The notes beneath the pieces were generated by a model, which searched no databases, was not told the origin of the DNA, and saw nothing but the letters and a program-made list of their open reading frames with translations. This document shows positions 22,943-47,141 of a stretch of DNA of 64,000 nt, piece by piece. The stretch is taken from IMG/VR virus record IMGVR_UViG_3300033145_000192, positions 113,376-177,375 of that record. One strand, 5' to 3'. Origin of the DNA: a virus. The position numbers and the translations under genes were made by a program. Position 1 is the stretch's first letter, and each line of letters starts with the position of its first letter.

Positions 22943-25156
22943 TATCCGATAACTCGCAATAGCCGTAGCCATAGCCAGCTTCTTGTCCTTCAATGTTGGT
23001 CTAGATTTCTCAGCAATGACTTCCGCATAGCGACTAAAGATAATAGGATGATATCCCCTAGTCGATTCATTAGCAAGAACTTCTAGAACTCTCTCAGTAG
23101 TTATCTCGTCTTCTAGGTATGAAGCAACGCCGAATGCAATGCGCTCGATACCTGTTCTATCGGTCTTTGTCAAAGACTTCTTGTATTTCTTCCCCGTGGT
23201 CTTCAATATCATCTTGGTGACGATATCGTAAACCTCTTCTACTCTGTCCAGTTCATTCGCCTTGGTTGTCTCCCAATCAAGCAGCCATCCCATGCCCTTC
23301 GGCTTGGTTTCTCTTGGCTTTTGTTTGATGTCGGTAGTTCCACCTGGTCTTCCAACTGGTGGCCTATTTCTATTCTGAGGCTTGCCTGGCTTATTCAGCG
23401 TAGGCATGCCTTCCTGCTCTTCCTCGTATTGTTCTGATAGAGGGTCAGTGAATGGGCCGTGCTTGATAAGCAATTCAGACTTCTCCCTAATTGCCTTCTC
23501 ATCACGCATACGCTCAAGCTCAATCTCAAAGTCCTCACCAAATGCCTCAAGGACTGCCTCAATGGAGATGATGTTTCTGTCTAGCAGACCCATAATGAGT
23601 TGCTTCTCAGCCTTCTCGTCACGTAGCGACATTCTTCCGAACTTAACCTTCGGAACGTCCCTATGGCCCATCGTATCGGCAATCATCTTCAACTGGCTGT
23701 TAATCCAGCGTGTGACGGTTTGGCGACCTTCCTCAAGACGCTCAAGCAAAGTTCGCACACCAAGGAAGCCTGTGCTAAAGCTAGCTCCAGTAGTTCCTCC
23801 TAGGAGAGTATCTGGGACGCCGAGGCCACGAAGAATGTCTCTATCAACTGCCTCATACTTGGCAACATTCAGGATTCTATCTACTGGTGGGTAGCTACTC
23901 TCAATAGAGATGGCATCATTCCATACCATGTTCATTGCGGCACTTGGAGTTCTCAAGAACTCAGCGAATGCTCTAAAATGCTCCTCTGGTGGAATAAAAC
24001 CGTTCTTGAAGTCGCCAATCTTGAAAATAGTGACTGCGTTAATTACGCTATCACATACGCTCATATCCATCTGGCGCAGTCTGTTCTTGTAGTAGATATC
24101 AGACATTACTGGCCATAGAAGTGGGTCAGCCCAATCCTCGTGGTCGTCCTTCATATAGTGGAGTGTCCACAGCTTTGCTGGGTCAACATCTACTATTAGT
24201 GGGTTCTTCCCCTTCTTTGATAGCTTCTTAAACTCGGGTGGTAGATTGATTTCGGTTTTGTCTAGGAAGTCGATTTCGTGCGTTGAGTTATACTGCCCAG
24301 TGTCGATATCGTTTGCTGTCAATGGGTCTAGGATAAAGACCCACTTTGACTCTCCGAAATACTTGGTGCCACGAAGGTCCATCTGGAATGGGTTGAGCAT
24401 AGTATAGCGCCATGGAATTTGCTTATCGCCAGGCTTCTTTCCAGATTGGTCGTCAACGTGCTGATTCTTGTCGTCTTCCGCCGGGTCATTTACATCACCA
24501 CGGACTTCAACAAATCCCTTCAGTGATTTTGTTCCCTTTGCTCTCTTCATCTTATTGTAGGCTGATTCGTTGATTGTGCCATGTGTTGTGTAGATGAATA
24601 CGTTGGCATACTTGTAGTAGTATCGAAGGATATCCTTTACTCTACCTGCAAGGTCTACGTGCTCGGCCCATCTTTTGTAGAACTTCTCAACGGCCTTGCT
24701 TGGGTGCTTGATGGTTAGTCCTTCTGAAGCGAAGTTAGCCATCAGGTCAATTACGTTCTTAGCTACGCCAAATCCCTTATATGCTTCAACACATAGACCC
24801 ATCTTGTAGTGGGCCATTCTGGCTCTAGAACTGAACGCGCTCATGCTCCCTTGGATTCGGCTATTACTGCCAGACAATCCACTGAACTGACTACCTCCAC
24901 CAAACATGCCGTTAAAGTTCTGTGGCATCAACCAAGAAAGTGGCCAATTTTGCAGACCATCCATTCCGAAGTTCTGTCCGGTGTCTCCACCTATGTTGAC
25001 GCCACGCCTTTGAATGTTTGCAGCATCGGCCCTAAACGCATCTACAGTTTCTCTATTGGCCTTAATGGCACCAGAAAGCGAACCCTCCAACTGTTTCAAA
25101 ACAGATGGGCTCAAGCCTATAGTATTGATGCCTAGTTCTACTCTGTTATCTGACAC
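22934..25156 (-). CDS. Portal protein
   Basis: A 740-residue protein directly downstream of the large terminase, as usual for portals. It has the size and helix-rich composition of the family, with segments such as IPWRYTMLNPFQMDLRG and LGGTTGASFSTGFLGVRTLLER. An extended Pro-rich linker follows near residues 590-630. It forms the dodecameric DNA entry ring at one capsid vertex. Start chosen at the ATG after a GTGTATGAT element; the leader is about 35 nt. Confidence 0.85.
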   Translation of the reverse strand: MSDNRVELGINTIGLSPSVLKQLEGSLSGAIKANRETVDAFRADAANIQRRGVNIGGDTGQNFGMDGLQNWPLSWLMPQNFNGMFGGGSQFSGLSGSNSRIQGSMSAFSSRARMAHYKMGLCVEAYKGFGVAKNVIDLMANFASEGLTIKHPSKAVEKFYKRWAEHVDLAGRVKDILRYYYKYANVFIYTTHGTINESAYNKMKRAKGTKSLKGFVEVRGDVNDPAEDDKNQHVDDQSGKKPGDKQIPWRYTMLNPFQMDLRGTKYFGESKWVFILDPLTANDIDTGQYNSTHEIDFLDKTEINLPPEFKKLSKKGKNPLIVDVDPAKLWTLHYMKDDHEDWADPLLWPVMSDIYYKNRLRQMDMSVCDSVINAVTIFKIGDFKNGFIPPEEHFRAFAEFLRTPSAAMNMVWNDAISIESSYPPVDRILNVAKYEAVDRDILRGLGVPDTLLGGTTGASFSTGFLGVRTLLERLEEGRQTVTRWINSQLKMIADTMGHRDVPKVKFGRMSLRDEKAEKQLIMGLLDRNIISIEAVLEAFGEDFEIELERMRDEKAIREKSELLIKHGPFTDPLSEQYEEEQEGMPTLNKPGKPQNRNRPPVGRPGGTTDIKQKPRETKPKGMGWLLDWETTKANELDRVEEVYDIVTKMILKTTGKKYKKSLTKTDRTGIERIAFGVASYLEDEITTERVLEVLANESTRGYHPIIFSRYAEVIAEKSRPTLKDKKLAMATAIASYRIGV

Positions 25157-35918: not shown

Positions 35919-36461
35919 TTAGGTGAAACACCTATTATTTGGGGCCTACACTATATCAGGGCCCCGCCGTAAGTCCTTTGTTTTCGACCACCGCTCTAAG
36001 TTCAATAATACCAGGGGGTTACGTAAAGCCTTTGTTTCCGACCCTTTCTTTTCATTTCACCGCCCCCATGAAATGAAATGCTTATCTCCTTTGTTTGCGA
36101 CCGCCCGATTTCTGGCACCCCCAACCCCTTGCCCTGTAAGGGTTTACGGCGGTGACCGTTTTCCGGCACCCCCAACCGCCCGATTTCCGTCGCCCCGCAC
36201 CGAAAACAAAGGAGTTATGACTGGCACGGGACGTGCTATAGGTAGGGTGGCGGCGCGGGGTCGGGTGCGACCCAAAAGCGTCCCGCTCTTTGACAATTCG
36301 GCTCATTTGCGTGTCACGGTGGGGGGCCTTGCGCCTCATTTGTGACGCACGGACCACGTCGAGAGACGTATCTGGAACCGAGACCCGCCGGAGGCTGAGA
36401 CGCTTCTGACACCTACGGGGGCGGCAGGAGGGACGCAAATGAGACGGCCTTGAAACGCAAC
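35919..36461. other. Non-coding region with repeats and a sigma-54-like promoter
   Basis: About 540 bp with no convincing gene. It contains three direct copies of CCTTTGTTTNCGACC (35975, 36029, 36088), duplicated GGCACCCCCAACC blocks, an inverted copy of the first repeat near 36201, and a sigma-54-like promoter at 36222. The TGANACG array starts at about 36310. Confidence 0.6.
36222..36237 (+). promoter_or_regulatory. Sigma-54-like promoter 1
   Basis: TGGCACGGGACGTGCT: GG at 36223-36224 and GC at 36235-36236 are exactly 10 bp apart. Preceded by AAAGGAGTTATGAC. No gene starts close downstream. It may drive the whole array region. Confidence 0.6.
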
Positions 36462-36524
36462 GGGTCGCCCTGAAGGCAGGGAGTCGCAAATGCGACGAAT
36501 CCGGTTCGAATCCGGAACGACCCA
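36462..36524 (+). ncRNA. tRNA-like element with short loops
   Basis: Acceptor GGGTCGC with ACGACCC (one C-A mismatch), T-arm TCCGG-TTCGAAT-CCGGA, and two mini-hairpins in the D and anticodon positions with only 4-nt loops. It cannot read codons but keeps the top half of a tRNA. The next reading frame's first possible ATG is its 3' discriminator. Confidence 0.5.
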
Positions 36525-36583
36525 TGACACGTTTCACCATGCGTCTCACAGAAAGGGACGCAAATGACACGAAGGAGGAGGAG

Positions 36584-36814
36584 ATGAAACGAATGCGGCC
36601 TGTCACTGAGACGATGGCACGCATCTGCGACGAATGTGACGGGTTGGGTTTCGTTCCGCGACACTCAACTGGAACGAAAGTGACACTGGTCGAGGCGCAT
36701 ACGGCACAGAAATGCGACGAATGCGACGGCTTCGGGCTGGTGGCACGCAAGCGAGACGAATCCACCCTGACTGAGACGATTCTGCGACTCAAAACCCTCT
36801 ACGAAACGAACTGA
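36584..36814 (+). CDS. Small zinc-finger protein (two CDECDG motifs)
   Basis: 76 residues from the ATG behind GGAGGAGG. CDECDGLGF and CDECDGFGL are DnaJ-like CxxCxGxG zinc motifs, spaced to form one zinc site. The upstream in-frame ATG at 36524 coincides with the tRNA-like 3' end and lacks a ribosome site. It sits inside the TGANACG array; its codons carry several copies. Confidence 0.6.
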   Translation: MKRMRPVTETMARICDECDGLGFVPRHSTGTKVTLVEAHTAQKCDECDGFGLVARKRDESTLTETILRLKTLYETN

Positions 36815-36823
36815 GAGACGGAA

Positions 36824-37333
36824 ATGACACGCTTCTGGACCATTGCCCACGACGATAAGGTTTCAAATGCGTCCCACGAACACCTAACCCTTGCGTTTCA
36901 CGACGATGGGACGATTGCGGTTCGAACCAAGACCGTCTCAGAAGGGGCTCATATGCGTGACACTTACGAGTCATGCGGCTCCTACGGTCGGTGGGATACG
37001 GGTCACCGTTGGGTCGAATTCGACTCAAGCTGCACCGCATTTGACATGGCTTCGGTTGCCATGCAACGCGAGTGGAACGTAACGGTTCTCAACTGCAACG
37101 CAAGTGACTCGGATTGGGGTCACATCAGTTTCATCGAGTGCGACGGAAACGTCACCGACCCGGATACGTTGCGCGGCATGGGACGCAACAAAGACGCGGA
37201 CGCCGATGAGACGAGTGCGACACGCAAGCGGAACGGAAACAGCCTCATGCGGTTCGGCGGGTGGAACGCAACGCGGGTCGTAAATGACAAGGCTCTGGCA
37301 CGAGCCAAGGCTGCCGACGCGGCACGCAACTGA
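36824..37333 (+). CDS. Hypothetical protein in repeat array
   Basis: A 169-residue acidic protein (many Asp and Asn, moderately aromatic). Its ATG lies in GGAAATGACACG, itself a copy of the array motif, and its TGA stop is the first base triplet of a tRNA-like hairpin. No family recognised. Weak ribosome site. Confidence 0.5.
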   Translation: MTRFWTIAHDDKVSNASHEHLTLAFHDDGTIAVRTKTVSEGAHMRDTYESCGSYGRWDTGHRWVEFDSSCTAFDMASVAMQREWNVTVLNCNASDSDWGHISFIECDGNVTDPDTLRGMGRNKDADADETSATRKRNGNSLMRFGGWNATRVVNDKALARAKAADAARN

Positions 37334-37375
37334 CACGAACGGTGCTCGGGGCGGGTTCGACTCCCGCCCGTGTCA
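37331..37375 (+). ncRNA. tRNA-like minihelix
   Basis: TGACACG and CGTGTCA form a perfect 7-bp acceptor. The T-arm GGCGGG-TTCGACT-CCCGCC follows after a 12-nt linker. The gene's stop codon is the TGA of the acceptor strand. T-loop agrees with the tRNA consensus. Confidence 0.6.
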
Positions 37376-37432
37376 TTTCGGTTTCACCATACGTGCCACC
37401 CAGAGGCACGCAAACAGAACGGAAGTTTCAAA

Positions 37433-37651
37433 ATGAAGAACATTCACGACCTGCGAGACGCATTCGACACGATTCAGGCTGCGGCACGAGACGGAAAACG
37501 AGCCTGCAACGGATTTGAGACGCTAGAGGCGTCCTGCGTGTTGGACCACGATATGCTGGCCAGCATACTCCTGAGCGTTGAGGAGCAGTTGCGTCTCATT
37601 GCGGACCACGCGAACCGGAGCCTGGGACAAACCGCTATCCGAATCGACTGA
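37433..37651 (+). CDS. Small helical protein in repeat array
   Basis: 72 residues, predicted almost entirely helical (DLRDAFDTIQAAARDGKRA, LASILLSVEEQLRLIADHAN). No family recognised. It ends just before another tRNA-like hairpin, in the same layout as its neighbours. Confidence 0.5.
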   Translation: MKNIHDLRDAFDTIQAAARDGKRACNGFETLEASCVLDHDMLASILLSVEEQLRLIADHANRSLGQTAIRID

Positions 37652-37659
37652 CACGCATC

Positions 37660-37707
37660 TGAGACGGACGGCTTCTAGGGTCGTAGGGTTCGATTCCTTA
37701 CGACTCA
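37660..37707 (+). ncRNA. tRNA-like minihelix
   Basis: TGAGACG and CGACTCA pair at 6 of 7 positions. The T-arm TAGGG-TTCGATT-CCTTA is present, with a 17-nt linker. Located after the stop of 37433-37651. Confidence 0.5.
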
Positions 37708-37761
37708 CTTGCGGTTCACAATCCGTGAAACGCACAACTGCCTGGTGGCAAAGGATTTAGC

Positions 37762-38355
37762 ATGAACGTCAGAAAGAACGCGCTTCGTCTCATGGTCGTC
37801 CGCAACGCAACTGAGACGGAGTTCGCTGCCCAGTTCGCCTACCGCACCGCACCGCTCGGCTCGACGGGACGCAAATGGGACGCAATGATGGACGACGGCT
37901 GGTGGAGGGGCGACGGTAACGAGTGGGTCAAGGTCTACAAGGGTATCAGTGAAACGCATTTGAGCCCGGACGACTACAACTACCTCTCGTGGGACGAAAT
38001 TGACTCGATTCTGCGACGAGAGACCATTCGGTGCGTAAGCGTGTCAACGACTCGTCTGCGGCGTGTTCGGTCTCACTTGCGTATCACCGAGGCGTCGTCC
38101 TTCGGTGGCAACGTGGCCCGCAGGGTTCGGTGGCTCAAGGACATGCGGGACGAAGCGGAGCGAAACGCATTTGAGGCGAACGTCCTGCTCTGCTCCGATA
38201 TGGACCAGTTGGCCGTAACTCCCGGCGACGAGTGGGATTACACCTACAACCCCGAGACCTACGGTTGGGACCACAGCGAGCCGTCCGGGTCATTTGCGTT
38301 CCAGAACCGTGCCAGCCACGAGTTGACCTTCGACGACATGGACGACTGCTTCTAG
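37762..38355 (+). CDS. Hypothetical protein in repeat array
   Basis: A 197-residue protein, Trp/Asp/Glu-rich in its C-terminal half. No family recognised. AAAGG precedes the ATG after CCTGGTG, a block also seen before the next two genes. Codons include many TGANACG copies. Confidence 0.55.
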   Translation: MNVRKNALRLMVVRNATETEFAAQFAYRTAPLGSTGRKWDAMMDDGWWRGDGNEWVKVYKGISETHLSPDDYNYLSWDEIDSILRRETIRCVSVSTTRLRRVRSHLRITEASSFGGNVARRVRWLKDMRDEAERNAFEANVLLCSDMDQLAVTPGDEWDYTYNPETYGWDHSEPSGSFAFQNRASHELTFDDMDDCF

Positions 38356-38374
38356 CAGACACGCATTGGTGACG

Positions 38375-38403
38375 GAGGCGGTAGGTTCGATTCCTGCCGT
38401 CTC
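38375..38403 (+). ncRNA. tRNA top-half-like minihelix
   Basis: GAGGCGGTAGG pairs over 11 bp with CCTGCCGTCTC around loop TTCGATT, like a stacked acceptor plus T-stem with no other arm. Confidence 0.55.
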
Positions 38404-38458
38404 ATTTGCGTCTCAATTATGGGACGCTTAACGGCCTGGTGGCCAAGGTGACACGCAT

Positions 38459-38698
38459 ATGAGTATCTTCCTGAACGGCGAGGCGTATGAGCAGGACATG
38501 GCCGAGACTGTCGTTGAAACGCAAGTGGAACGATACACCGGCAACTGGGAAATGAAGGACGGCAGCCAGCCCGTTGGCATGGTGACCGGAATGAGACGGA
38601 AGGACAGTTTGTCCCGTTTGCGTCTCACCGACTCCCAGGCCAAGTTCTTCCTCAGCGACACTCACTGGGATATCTACTGGGAGGTGTTCACCGACTGA
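38459..38698 (+). CDS. Hypothetical protein in repeat array
   Basis: A 79-residue protein with a mid-region of EVERYTGNW and a C-terminal aromatic patch. It follows GCCTGGTGGCCAAGG. No family recognised. Confidence 0.5.
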   Translation: MSIFLNGEAYEQDMAETVVETQVERYTGNWEMKDGSQPVGMVTGMRRKDSLSRLRLTDSQAKFFLSDTHWDIYWEVFTD

Positions 38699-38735
38699 TA
38701 CGCATTTGAAACGAACCAACGTCGGTTTGTTTCAG

Positions 38736-38766
38736 AGGGATAGACGGTTCGATTCCGTTTGTCTCT
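38736..38766 (+). ncRNA. tRNA top-half-like minihelix, also terminator-like
   Basis: AGGGATA plus GACGG pairs over 12 bp with CCGTT plus TGTCTCT (G-T pairs included), loop TTCGATT. This is exactly 7+5 bp, the acceptor plus T-stem length of tRNA. It is followed by TTTT and so could also act as a weak terminator. Confidence 0.6.
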
Positions 38767-38809
38767 TTTGCGTCTCACAATGAGGCGCAGCAATGCCTGG
38801 AGGCACGCA

Positions 38810-39040
38810 ATGAACACGTATCTGCTCACGGTTTGGGACGGAAGCAACGCAAATGGGCTCGGCCAGACCTACAATCTGGGGCGCAGCAACGGGCTCTACA
38901 CCCCGATTCAGCAGGCTGGAACGATTCTGGCACAGTGGCACGCAAATGGCACGAACGAGTGGACGTGCAACGATAACGGGGCGTGGGAGAACCTGGAGAC
39001 GGGCCACAAGGCGCAACTGAGCCGAGTGCTGGGCCGCTAA
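38810..39040 (+). CDS. Hypothetical protein in repeat array
   Basis: 76 residues from the ATG behind GGAGG (MNTYLLTVWDGSNANG). Gly, Asn and Trp-rich. No family recognised. The upstream in-frame ATG at 38759 falls in the preceding hairpin. Confidence 0.5.
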   Translation: MNTYLLTVWDGSNANGLGQTYNLGRSNGLYTPIQQAGTILAQWHANGTNEWTCNDNGAWENLETGHKAQLSRVLGR

Positions 39041-39089
39041 ACGCAAGTGAGACGAATCAACTTCTAGCCTGAAACGCAAAGGAAACGAA

Positions 39090-39314
39090 ATGCTGAAAAG
39101 TGAACTGATAGAGGAAAACAAGCGGCTGCACGATACCGTCGATTACCTTCGGTCGCAGTTGCGTCTCATACCGCACAGTCGTTTCGAGAAGTATCGGCAC
39201 GCAAAGGACACGAACGAGACTCTGGCCTACCGCAAGTGCGCCCAAGAGGTAGACTCGCGCTGCCTCGCCGCACTGAGCCACGCAACTGACATACAAGACG
39301 GTTGCACCGACTAG
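39090..39314 (+). CDS. Small coiled-coil protein
   Basis: 74 residues: LIEENKRLHDTVDYLRSQLRL is a leucine-zipper-like segment, followed by a basic/Ala-rich half. AAAGGA precedes the ATG. Last gene of the array cluster; a terminator hairpin follows. Confidence 0.5.
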   Translation: MLKSELIEENKRLHDTVDYLRSQLRLIPHSRFEKYRHAKDTNETLAYRKCAQEVDSRCLAALSHATDIQDGCTD

Positions 39315-39336
39315 GCGACACGCATTTGAGACGGAC

Positions 39337-39369
39337 CTGAGCATGTCGTTAAACTGCTCGGTTTCTTTT
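39337..39369 (+). terminator. Intrinsic terminator at end of array gene cluster
   Basis: CTGAGCA and TGCTCGG make a 7-bp stem with an 11-nt loop, followed by TTTCTTTT. This element takes the place where upstream genes have tRNA-like hairpins. Confidence 0.65.
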
Positions 39370-39562
39370 GCGTCTCACAACTGGCCAGGCCAGGGGGCAG
39401 TCTGTCTATAATGAATCAGCGAACGACACGCAAATGCAACGTATCTTCTCTAGCAGTTACGAATGACACGCAAATGCTACGAATGCTTTCGTTTCACCAT
39501 ACGTCTCACGAGAATCCGCCCGAGGTGTTCACGCATAAGGAGTAAATGACACGCAAATGAGA

Positions 39563-39724
39563 CCCACTACATATGGTATGCTATTTGTTATGACACGCAA
39601 ATGAAACGCTGTTGTTCCCTACGGGGAGATTGGCATGATTCCAACACAACTAAAGGAGTTACAAATGAGACGCAAATGCAACGAGCACCTGCGCCATTCT
39701 AATACACCCCCCATATGTAGTGGG
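39563..39724. repeat. 14-bp perfect inverted repeat, 134-bp spacer
   Basis: CCCACTACATATGG at 39563-39576 and CCATATGTAGTGGG at 39711-39724. The spacer contains further TGANACG copies and a possible small frame. Confidence 0.8.
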
Positions 39725-40004
39725 TTGGCACGCAAGAGAGACGCAACGAGCCTATGAAACGCATTTGTGACATAAAATCAATTCGTTTCACTATACGTCT
39801 CACGGAAAGCCGCCCGAGGTGTCTGGGGAGAGGGAGGAAACGCAAATGAGACGAGAGCCGCAAATGAGACAAAAGCCTCCGCTGCGCTGCGTCATGCTTC
39901 TTTTCATTTCACCTTGCAACGCATTTGTGGAGCAAGGCTACCTAAAGGCTTTACAGCGTTTCACTTACGTCTCAGATGTTGCACCGTATGTGACACGAAG
40001 ACTT

Positions 40005-40020
40005 TGGCACGGGATTTGCT
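40005..40020 (+). promoter_or_regulatory. Sigma-54-like promoter 2 (near-consensus)
   Basis: TGGCACGGGATTTGCT matches the RpoN consensus TGGCAC-N5-TTGC at every fixed position. GG and GC are 10 bp apart. A TGACACG copy ends 8 bp upstream of it. Confidence 0.65.
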
Positions 40021-40114
40021 TAGGGGGCGGCTGGCGGCTGGCCGACGTAACTCTATACGCCACGTCTAAGCCATTGTGCCCACTAGCTTTATGAACTCAG
40101 TGGACCTTGGGGTC

Positions 40115-40130
40115 TGGCATGGCATTCGCT
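40115..40130 (+). promoter_or_regulatory. Sigma-54-like promoter 3
   Basis: TGGCATGGCATTCGCT; GG 40116-40117, GC 40128-40129, 10 bp apart. Unlike most others it is not palindromic, which favours a promoter over an RNA hairpin. Confidence 0.45.
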
Positions 40131-40192
40131 TAGTGAGACGTATCTGACCCATGACACGCATAACTCCTTTGTTTTGGCAATGAGACGTATTG

Positions 40193-40228
40193 TGGTGTCC
40201 AGCCGGACACTGTAGCCAAATGGACACC
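40193..40228 (+). promoter_or_regulatory. Palindromic upstream sites of promoter 4
   Basis: Two sites: GTGTCC-AGCC-GGACAC, a perfect palindrome, followed directly by TGTAGCC-AAAT-GGACACC. They lie about 40-60 bp upstream of the -24 GG. Confidence 0.55.
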
Positions 40229-40261
40229 ACTGGAATCATTAGAGTTACGTCAAATACCCTC

Positions 40262-40277
40262 TGGCATGGGACGTGCT
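40262..40277 (+). promoter_or_regulatory. Sigma-54-like promoter 4
   Basis: TGGCATGGGACGTGCT followed by ATAG; GG and GC 10 bp apart. Preceded by AGAGTTACG as in the other members. Confidence 0.55.
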
Positions 40278-40465
40278 ATAGCTTCCCTGTCGGCCAACGG
40301 CAACACGGGAGGAAAGGTAAGGTATCACGGGGGTTACGGGTGTCATTGTGATACCCTCCCATGATACTAACCCTAGACTCGCCAGCATATTCGGGAGGTA
40401 AGCCTAACCCCTATTCGCAGGAATCGTGTCAAAACGGTCCCGAGCGAGCCATAAATGAGACGGAT

Positions 40466-40483
40466 TGTCGCCAAAAGGCTACA
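40466..40483 (+). promoter_or_regulatory. Palindromic upstream site of promoter 5
   Basis: TGTCGCC-AAAA-GGCTACA. TGAGACG ends 3 bp before it and 51 bp before the -24 GG. The same layout is found at promoters 7 and 8. Confidence 0.65.
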
Positions 40484-40511
40484 GCGTCCACGCAACGGGG
40501 GGAGTTAGGTT

Positions 40512-40527
40512 TGGCATTCGGCGTGCT
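40512..40527 (+). promoter_or_regulatory. Sigma-54-like promoter 5, upstream of ornate RNA
   Basis: TGGCATTCGGCGTGCT; GG 40513-40514, GC 40525-40526. A start about 12 bp on (near 40,538) would transcribe the structured region that ends at the 41397 terminator. Confidence 0.6.
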
Positions 40528-40539
40528 ACTGTGTTCCGT

Positions 40540-41425
40540 AACGCTAACTTGAGAGGGTAAAGCGAGCCACTATACCGCCCCATAAACGGGATTCCGACTG
40601 ATAGCGGGATAATGATTCTATCAGGGTTTTATACTAACCGGCGTTAAAAGCGTTGGACGTATTGTGGACCTTAGCACGATACGTAGGGTTCCCCTGGCGG
40701 GGAATACAAAGGTTGTATGGTCTACTGTGCAAGGTAGCTTAAGCCATACAACCGGGGGCGGTAAGCCGAGATACTGGCTTGCTCAATGTCGTAAGACTGC
40801 CCTGTAAAAGCGACGGCGCTTGCCCAAAGTATTTAGGCTTTAACCTATAAGGTTGCGGTAGGGGTTGGAATCAGGATACCCTGAGCGAGTAGACTAGGTT
40901 AGAGTTTCTGCCATGCGGGCGACAAGCCGATTGTTAAGCGGCTCGCGTGGATAGGTTGGCAAACCTATAACCCTGTTTTGGTGGGGTATATGGTGAGCTA
41001 TGGCCGACTGTTGGGAGCGTGGCGCAAGCTACGCCAGTCGGTTATCTCGCTAGTCTGTGCAAGCGGACCTTGTATATCCTTTTAATGAACGGGGCCTAGC
41101 CCGAAACGTCCGTTTCCGTTAGCTAGACACGGTTTCGCCTCTATTCGCCTATATCCGTGAGTCGTTTAGACTCGTGGGCTACCTAACTTGGTAGGTTACA
41201 GGATACCGCAAGGTCTCCCCAATACCGTAAACCCAGGGGCCTACAGGATAGCGGGCGATTGGCGATAACACGGTCCATAATGCGTTGATACCAAGGGACT
41301 CCAAACGGAGTTATTAAATCCCGTGAACGGTTTATGCCGGAAACAATGGCTTATTAGGGCAGGGTTCAAGGGGTCATATCCCCTGGCAGGGTTTTTGCCG
41401 CCACCATTCGGGAGGCGGCTTTTTT
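40540..41425 (+). ncRNA. Large ornate structured RNA candidate (about 0.9 kb)
   Basis: No reading frame fits. Many helices are visible: GGTTGTATGG/CCATACAACC (10 bp) near 40,710, ATAGGTT-GGCA-AACCTAT, CCGACTG...CAGTCGG enclosing GCGTGGC-GCAA-GCTACGC (GNRA-type loop), AGCCG/CGGCT, GAGTC/GACTC, CTACC/GGTAG and ACTCC/GGAGT. A sigma-54-like promoter precedes it and an intrinsic terminator ends it. Size, tailed-phage context and nearby tRNA elements recall GOLLD and ROOL RNAs, but I cannot show homology. Confidence 0.6.
41397..41425 (+). terminator. Intrinsic terminator of the ornate RNA
   Basis: GCCGCC and GGCGGC stem, 11-nt loop, then TTTTTT. Confidence 0.85.
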
Positions 41426-43769: not shown

Positions 43770-43818
43770 GCCTTATCTCCGACTGGCGGGGTTTACGGGT
43801 CCGACTCCCGATAAGGCT
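43770..43818 (+). ncRNA. Mini tRNA-like element with one inner arm
   Basis: Acceptor GCCTTAT/ATAAGGC (7 bp), one hairpin CTCCG-ACTGG-CGGGG, and T-arm CGGG-TCCGACT-CCCG, 49 nt in all. A separate perfect hairpin GGCATAC/GTATGCC lies just upstream at 43744-43766. Confidence 0.5.
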
Positions 43819-43819
43819 G

Positions 43820-43905
43820 TCGTTGCTGGTCTAGTAGAATGACGCCCGCTATCAAAGAGCATAGCTCTTATGCGGGAGATATGGGTTCATGTCCCATGCA
43901 ACGCG
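43820..43905 (+). ncRNA. tRNA-like element with hairpin in anticodon loop
   Basis: Acceptor CGTTGC/GCAACG, D-arm GTC-N9-GAC, anticodon stem CCCGC/GCGGG and T-arm ATGGG-TTCATGT-CCCAT are all in canonical order. The anticodon loop is 22 nt, not 7, and holds AAGAGC-ATA-GCTCTT. Removing 15 nt after the first loop base would leave TTCTTAT, with U33 and anticodon CTT (Lys). Confidence 0.5.
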
Positions 43906-43987
43906 CTACACAAGCCAGTAGGTAGAACCCCGCGTGGGGTATCACGCCGTATGGCTGTTTCTTTCACTCCAGCAAATAGGAGGGCAA

Positions 43988-44194: not shown

Positions 44195-44471
44195 ACAGCC
44201 TCAGTTTGTAGGCGGCGCGGGAATGGGGGTTTCAAGTATAGGCTGGCCCCCTCGCCCCGTATTCCCTGGGGAGGGTAAAGAATCCATGCGTATCAGGGCT
44301 GTTTGAACGGGGGGCTTCGGCCCCCTTCGTAATGTAGCTAGGCAGTTTGTGCGGCGCACCATGTCGGAATTGGATTGGGTGCGAGCGTATTGCGCGTGAA
44401 TGGGGCGCATACAATACAAACTCTCTAACGGTCCCAAGCCCGTGTAAATACAGAGGGAGGAAGGAATAACC
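44195..44471. other. Intergenic region with UUCG hairpin
   Basis: 277 bp without a convincing gene. It holds GGGGGC-TTCG-GCCCCC at 44310-44325, a very stable tetraloop hairpin lacking a T tract. Confidence 0.5.
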
Positions 44472-47011: not shown

Positions 47012-47141
47012 GGGGTGTTAGTCCAACGGGAGGACGCCGTCTGTAATGCTGCGCAGCGGGCATATTACTGCTAGGAGTAGCTATCCTGGCCGAGTATGTC
47101 GTCACTAGACGGAAACATAGGTTCGACTCCTATACACTCCA
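47012..47141 (+). tRNA. tRNA-like gene with 59-nt anticodon-loop insertion
   Basis: Acceptor GGGGTGT/ACACTCC, U8-A9, D-arm GTCC-AACGGGA-GGAC, anticodon stem CCGTC/GACGG, T-arm ATAGG-TTCGACT-CCTAT and discriminator A are all canonical. The anticodon loop is 66 nt. The insertion folds into GTAATGC/GCATATTAC and GCTAGGA/TCCTGGC hairpins. If the intron lies just 5' of position 33, the loop becomes TTCACTA, anticodon CAC (Val). No CCA encoded. Confidence 0.6.

Follow-up and report, generated by a model that had tools for sequence, protein, structure and literature searches.

Anticodon-less tRNA-like T-loop elements in the leaders of a phage gene cluster: conserved structures and candidate processing signals

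Introduction

Why should a phage place structures that resemble the top half of a transfer RNA (tRNA), and that cannot decode, among a series of small protein-coding genes? The question is raised by a gene cluster in a 64,000-base window of viral DNA (positions 113376-177375 of the 177,375-base IMG/VR virus record IMGVR_UViG_3300033145_000192), where a first-pass annotation had noted five elements with a tRNA-type T-loop and proposed that they punctuate transcripts; that interpretation is, as a whole, partly supported. Comparison with a related phage provides good support for selection on the RNA structure of the elements, and they are probably functional, because their base pairing is preserved there. 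As to their role, we tentatively favour a reading that falls short of probable: the elements, which are mimics of the tRNA top half (a T-loop on a T-stem and acceptor helix) set in the leaders of a single operon, would be cut by tRNA enzymes.

Anatomy of the elements

All five T-loops are found where they had been reported, at 36505 (TTCGAAT), 37356 (TTCGACT), and 37689, 38386 and 38748 (TTCGATT in each). The elements that carry them are:

36462-36523, plus strand: element 1, 62 nt, anticodon-less cloverleaf, T-loop TTCGAAT
37331-37375, plus strand: element 2, 7 bp outer stem, short one-arm insert and T-arm, loop TTCGACT
37677-37707, plus strand: element 3, minihelix, loop TTCGATT
38374-38404, plus strand: element 4, minihelix, loop TTCGATT
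38736-38766, plus strand: element 5, minihelix, loop TTCGATT

The series is graded in size, from the cloverleaf of element 1 through the one-arm form of element 2 to the bare T-loop hairpins of elements 3-5, which as delimited are 31 nt each, fold as single hairpins and lack any insert. Element 1 folds as a closed four-helix cloverleaf (-33.5 kcal/mol, z -4.75). Its acceptor has 6 bp and its T-arm 5 bp; the other two arms, also of 5 bp, end in 4-nt loops. The annotation's statement that the elements cannot decode stands: element 1 has a 4-nt loop (AAAT) in place of the 7-nt anticodon loop, and elements 2-5 have no arm with a 7-nt anticodon loop. Its claim that the last element has exactly 7+5 bp does not, since element 5 forms 14 contiguous pairs. 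Contiguous pairs in the window and in the related phage number 11 and 16 for element 3 and 11 and 12 for element 4; in the relative, a single mismatch interrupts element 5, where 12 of 13 positions are paired.

The elements had also been said to follow gene stops, which is true of all except element 1; this one opens the cluster with no gene before it, about 225 bases downstream of a promoter-like motif at 36222. The first three bases of element 2 (TGA, 37331-37333) are indeed the stop codon of gene 36824-37333, as annotated. This stop-in-stem arrangement is not conserved, because the corresponding gene in the relative ends earlier, with TAG.

Directly before element 5 lies an 11-bp hairpin (38707-38735), conserved with changes in the relative, whose 3' arm resembles that of element 5, like a partial duplication of the element.

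Conservation of base pairing in a related phage

The relative is a 35-kb contig, IMGVR_UViG_3300033142_000579 (L002), which contains the same region in the same order. DNA identity is 79-85%; the longest blocks reach about 80-85%, and the remaining blocks are less similar. It retains all five elements at corresponding places, and in all 10 element copies of the two phages a 7-nt T-T-C-R-A-N-Y loop is closed by G-C.

Compensatory changes in relatives, whose absence was one half of the annotation's own refuting condition, were sought in an alignment of elements 3-5 from both phages (six rows; gap-free in the minihelix part) and are present. Both sides of the pair have changed in 7/12 minihelix pairs, in 2/8 pairs of the hairpin that follows (hairpin 1, below) and in 9/20 pairs overall, while 95.8% of alignment cells are paired (81.8% in shuffles). 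The covariation score is 0.553, against 0.250 in shuffled alignments; none of 500 shuffles reaches it, and slid controls give 0.085-0.204. The cells are not independent events, since the six rows represent three neighbouring loci in two phages.

Taken locus by locus, 14 of the 36 pairs in elements 3-5 differ between the phages. Six of them are compensated on both sides, another five have changed on one side only and keep a G-U pair, and the last three include a mismatch, which lies at the outermost pair in the window (two cases) or in the relative (one case). The relative keeps 35 of 36 pairs, where random substitution with the same number of changes per arm would leave 21.4. Change is concentrated in the stems of elements 3-5 (21/72 positions) and all but absent from the T-loops (1/35; Fisher p 0.0009), and the sole T-loop change falls at a position that is variable among tRNAs. 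A fixed loop, closing G-C pairs and a stem free in sequence but covarying form the signature of a tRNA T-arm.

The two larger elements agree with this picture. In the counterpart of element 1 (L002:4716-4777) three of six acceptor pairs have changed on both sides, all pairs are kept and the core is almost unchanged; with two sequences compared, 59 of 500 shuffles equal this result, so by itself it is only suggestive. The counterpart of element 2 (L002:5579-5622), compared in its outer stem, keeps that stem with one C-G to G-C swap. The proposed mimicry of tRNA top halves is therefore upheld by T-loop anatomy at five places and by compensatory changes that hold the pairing.

Chance and known RNA families

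The 177-kb record holds three hairpins that combine a TTCRANY loop with 11 or 12 pairs out of 12, all of them in this cluster, and chance is excluded: in 60 first-order Markov shuffles of the whole record the mean is 0.05 and no shuffle has more than 1. Locally, in 4 kb, the three compare with 0.001 in 2000 shuffles. Intrinsic terminators, in which a T run follows a G+C-rich stem, are likewise rejected, since a loose scan of 36-41 kb finds three terminator-like sites, fewer than the 5.8 in shuffles; element 2 is the only element listed. Nor are these ordinary tRNAs: ARAGORN calls no tRNA at any of the five places, and Rfam has no match there at threshold. Against the tRNA family (RF00005) element 1 scores 20 bits (curated threshold 29) and elements 2-5 are unlisted up to E 5; against mascRNA-menRNA (RF01684) element 2 reaches 22.7 bits (E 0.77), below the cut-off of 42.5.

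Outside the cluster, 43770-43817 has a top-half-like fold, with acceptor-like arms GCCTTAT/ATAAGGC and the loop TCCGACT; the stability of the fold at 43771-43818 does not exceed that of shuffles (z 0.17).

Layout of the leaders

Elements 3-5 are each followed by two further hairpins, here termed hairpin 1 and hairpin 2:

37711-37733, plus strand: hairpin 1 after element 3, 3-base gap
38408-38427, plus strand: hairpin 1 after element 4, 3-base gap
38770-38788, plus strand: hairpin 1 after element 5, 3-base gap
37739-37750, plus strand: hairpin 2, TGCCTGGTGGCA, beside the ribosome-binding site of gene 37762
38433-38444, plus strand: hairpin 2, GGCCTGGTGGCC, in the leader of element 4
38794-38805, plus strand: hairpin 2, TGCCTGGAGGCA, in the leader of element 5

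The order in these leaders is minihelix, hairpin 1, hairpin 2 and ATG, with the ATG 43-54 bases past the minihelix. The gap between minihelix and hairpin 1 is exactly three bases in both phages, and hairpin 2, at the ribosome-binding site, reads NGCC-TGGT-GGCN in most copies. Elements 1 and 2 lie 57-60 bases ahead of their genes, with the next hairpin farther off.

Possible processing by tRNA enzymes

How might such elements act? A single long transcript from the promoter-like site at 36222 would carry all five. Reading the T-loop together with the helix, enzymes of tRNA maturation would cleave there; RNase Z, acting at the 3' side, is the most likely of them, alone or joined by RNase P at the 5' side. 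The small genes would in this way be separated into individual mRNAs. If the cut falls at the 3' end of elements 3-5, the downstream mRNA would begin 3 bases from hairpin 1, which would therefore lie at its 5' end as a terminal stem-loop protecting it from decay, followed by hairpin 2 beside the ribosome-binding site. Trimming from cloverleaf to minihelix would keep the processing signal while losing what decoding needs.

RNase Z appears the likelier enzyme because 41 of the 42 tRNAs checked in this phage lack an encoded CCA and because UU follows the stems of elements 2-5 (at fixed places in both phages; 8 of the 10 copies). The CCA check covered ARAGORN's 45 tRNAs except an undetermined one (record position 24125) and two weak matches in the window; since CCA is not encoded, the phage's own tRNAs also need 3' maturation. 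Downstream uracils are said, in the title of one study, to activate tRNA maturation in B. subtilis. Folding and covariation point to an acceptor helix and T-stem with a T-loop, the feature of a minimal RNase P substrate, whose coaxial stacking we infer; the T-loop or elbow with a CCA-less 3' trailer, the feature of an RNase Z substrate, is likewise present. tRNA tops of this kind are read by RNase P, RNase Z, the CCA-adding enzyme and TruB (PMC4810234). The elements are perhaps cut by RNase P and RNase Z, a role that they fit as candidate signals.

Several observations weigh against such processing. Bacterial RNase P reads a 3' RCCA, and no encoded CCA follows any of the 10 copies. In the case of the T4 tRNA-Ser precursor, which lacks CCA, RNase P is reported to favour a terminal CCA over UAA (PMC11143913). 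The helices of elements 3-5 in the two phages vary between 11 and 16 pairs rather than holding to a strict 12, and two junctions of the cluster, ahead of 36824 and of 39090, have no T-loop element. Conservation extends to the downstream half of the leader, so that the T-hairpin may belong to a regulatory leader as one of its modules and mark no cut site; the outer arms of the elements overlap a motif scattered through the region, so that the stem sequence may in part have arisen for a different reason.

In addition, only one relative with the elements was found. Protein searches for relatives return the same contig and one 4-kb fragment only. Pattern scans of IMG/VR give 33 and 4 stretches, with contiguous hairpins in the known relative only, and a scan of genome contigs gives no match; one other stretch (L025), with 11 of 12 positions paired, was rejected as it reads as an ordinary tRNA. 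A search with a HATPase gene 10 kb away gives 25 loci, and the stretches around it contain the minihelix in none. A search model (R2), built from six sequences only, has no match in the whole records of the distant relatives behind 11 of these 25 loci (a scan that left out L069 and L075-L087), and its best score among 11 named phages is 20.9 bits, against 43-45 for real elements; these low matches were not inspected singly.

It is doubtful, then, but possible that dedicated anticodon-less tRNA tops, down to a bare 31-nt hairpin, punctuate a polycistronic mRNA by way of the host's tRNA-maturation enzymes. Equally tentative is the corollary that each cut would yield a downstream mRNA capped by a 5' hairpin, a tRNA punctuation without tRNAs. 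If the elements are cut, a DNA phage would be employing the minimal substrate of tRNA enzymes, a helix with a T-loop, as a natural signal for the serial processing of its mRNA. The graded sizes, between the cloverleaf and the minihelix, would then also form a natural series on which to gauge the requirements of RNase P, RNase Z and the CCA-adding enzyme. Even uncut, conserved T-loop modules in phage mRNA leaders are an unusual case of tRNA mimicry.

Alternative explanations

The main rival, and a serious one though somewhat unlikely in our estimate, is a regulatory or stabilising leader, in which minihelix, hairpin 1 and hairpin 2 jointly bind a protein or an RNA and remain uncut. Such a leader would act on the small genes through their translation, the stability of their mRNA or antitermination, with the T-loop kept as a stable, recognisable fold or as the target of T-loop-modifying or elbow-binding proteins. 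It is to be taken seriously because elements 3-5 are joined to a covarying hairpin 1, at the same 3-base distance in both phages, and to hairpin 2 at the ribosome-binding site, neither of which the annotation had noticed. Two further points favour it: in layout the leaders recall the start-associated sequences of cluster K mycobacteriophages, and at the junction 39320-39385 the corresponding position is taken by a hairpin that has no T-loop. What a leader leaves unexplained is the full tRNA T-loop consensus, closed by G-C at all five elements, as well as the cloverleaf of element 1 and the one-arm form of element 2, with their other spacings to the next hairpin.

An explanation at the level of DNA is improbable: inverted copies of a motif, GNNACGCAAATGNNACGAA, would flank a T-loop-like sequence by accident, and the element would matter as DNA, being a site of recombination or protein binding. 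The motif does recur dozens of times in these 4-5 kb and in the relative, and the outer arms of elements 2-5 (TGAGACG, CGTCTCA) resemble it; the inner half of the T-stem and the loop lie outside it, however, and the five one-sided changes keep only a G-U pair, which is relevant in RNA and not in duplex DNA.

The motif itself spans about 19 bp and comprises two GNNACG units 11 bp apart. Its dozens of copies at 36200-40600 lie on both strands, within and between genes, while the rest of the record has one copy or none per 2.5 kb. It is dense in the close relative, and several copies occur in a distant phage contig (L054) whose HATPase gene is 38% identical to that of this phage.

Less probable still is a decoy or anti-defence bait, in which surplus tRNA tops occupy host enzymes that act on tRNA or toxins that target it. 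The phage does possess tRNAs and a tRNA-repair kit of two RNA ligases and a polynucleotide kinase-phosphatase (Pfam, in the rest of the record: RNA_ligase in two proteins, PNK3P/AAA_33 in one); bait would need neither placement in leaders, at most one per gene, nor conserved downstream modules, and the anticodon loop on which anticodon nucleases act is absent. Least likely, and disfavoured by the sequence comparison, is the decay of tRNA genes kept by inertia in a tRNA-rich phage (about 42 tRNAs and a transfer-messenger RNA, tmRNA, elsewhere in the record; a cloverleaf-to-hairpin gradient), as changes are compensatory or wobble-preserving, pairing is maintained though 14/36 pairs differ, and decay does not predict that elements 3-5 should be nearly equivalent hairpins whose places correspond between the two phages.

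Comparison with known systems

Among the closest known systems are mascRNA/menRNA, tRNA-like RNAs that RNase P and RNase Z cleave. They share an anticodon-less tRNA-like fold of about 60 nt, and element 2 is their sub-threshold match; they differ in forming the ends of vertebrate long RNAs, one per RNA, whereas the phage elements are serial and descend to a bare hairpin. Mitochondrial transcripts carry tRNA-type structures between the genes of one transcript (tRNA punctuation), and there the tRNAs are functional while the phage elements cannot decode. The phage's own tRNA cluster shares the T-loop consensus and CCA-less 3' ends with the elements, which differ from it in having no decoding anticodon arm and in scoring below the Rfam tRNA threshold.

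RNase P is known to cut the precursor of the phage C4 antisense RNA and a polycistronic mRNA (PMC11143913). These resemble the elements in that a phage RNA or an mRNA is the RNase P substrate, which for the elements is a prediction. Their RNase P sites are known as single ones and not as a T-loop series (the sequences were not compared here).

In cluster K mycobacteriophages, start-associated sequences (SAS) and ESAS, as far as the consulted part of their description goes, combine a motif at the ribosome-binding site, whose ends are symmetrical, with an inverted repeat farther upstream, and there is little support for RNA pairing of the ESAS repeats (PMC3203893). The likeness is one of leader modules repeated at gene starts; in contrast, hairpin 1 covaries, and no T-loop element is seen in that part of the cluster K account. 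The 13-bp SAS, GGGATAGGAGCCC, is absent before start codons here: the 64 kb hold two matches with two mismatches each, where chance gives 1.21. In the consulted parts of the literature on tRNA-like processing and tRNA-like elements, T-arm minihelices between phage genes are not reported, though this does not establish that no report exists.

The phage and its gene cluster

The source is a tailed phage without close named kin. Genes in the window include those for the terminase large subunit, a portal protein, an RF-1-type protein and a class II ribonucleotide reductase with about 47% identity to its mycobacteriophage counterparts; the remainder of the record encodes one tmRNA and 42 tRNAs (ARAGORN), clustered away from the elements. 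Of 50,697 phage records, none matches the cluster region at the nucleotide level, and INPHARED yields none for the region, the portal, another structural-region protein, the HATPase or the tmRNA. The cluster contains:

36222-36238, plus strand: promoter-like motif TGGCAC-N6-TGCTA (putative function), at the same place in the relative (L002:4501)
36584-36814, plus strand: gene after element 1, 76 aa, with two CDECDG motifs
36824-37333, plus strand: gene of 169 aa, known family not found, no T-loop element before it
37433-37651, plus strand: gene after element 2, 72 aa, conserved in the relative
37762-38355, plus strand: gene after element 3, 197 aa, 88% identical in the relative, known family not found
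38459-38698, plus strand: gene after element 4, 79 aa, 77% identical in the relative
38810-39040, plus strand: gene after element 5, 76 aa, known family not found

These genes are real, as all seven compared have an open counterpart in the relative; the product of 36584-36814 has a weak DnaJ zinc-finger-like match, under the curated cut-off. The promoter-like motif, in the form TGGCAY-N5/6-TGCTW, has six copies (36222, 40005, 40262, 40512, 42275 and 47319), every one of them on the plus strand and within this part of the record; shuffles average 0.7 copies, with at most 4. The motif is present too in L002 and L054. No further motif of the kind occurs at 36239-40004 of the window or in L002 after 4501. 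Its GG-N10-GC spacing is that of sigma-54 promoters.

Other features nearby

Between genes at 44394-44461 lies a likely type-P1 twister self-cleaving ribozyme (33 bits, E 0.001), under the Rfam cut-off of 67 and with its core, CGGUCCCAAGCCCG and GAGGGA, intact. Unusual tRNAs also occur: the tRNA at 47012-47141 (45.7 bits) has an anticodon loop enlarged by about 59 bases, the stretch 43820-43906 can adopt a tRNA fold whose anticodon loop carries a small hairpin, and L003:7508-7659 is a 152-nt tRNA match. Removal of such inserts by cutting and ligation is conceivable, because two RNA ligases and a kinase-phosphatase are encoded. The phage also encodes a protein with PARP catalytic and WGR domains (L003:5135-6403). 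Lastly, the 661 nt at 40660-41320, which hold no convincing gene and no Rfam family at threshold, fold at -268.9 kcal/mol, much more stably than shuffled versions (z -5.2; 20 shuffles), and are possibly a large structured RNA.

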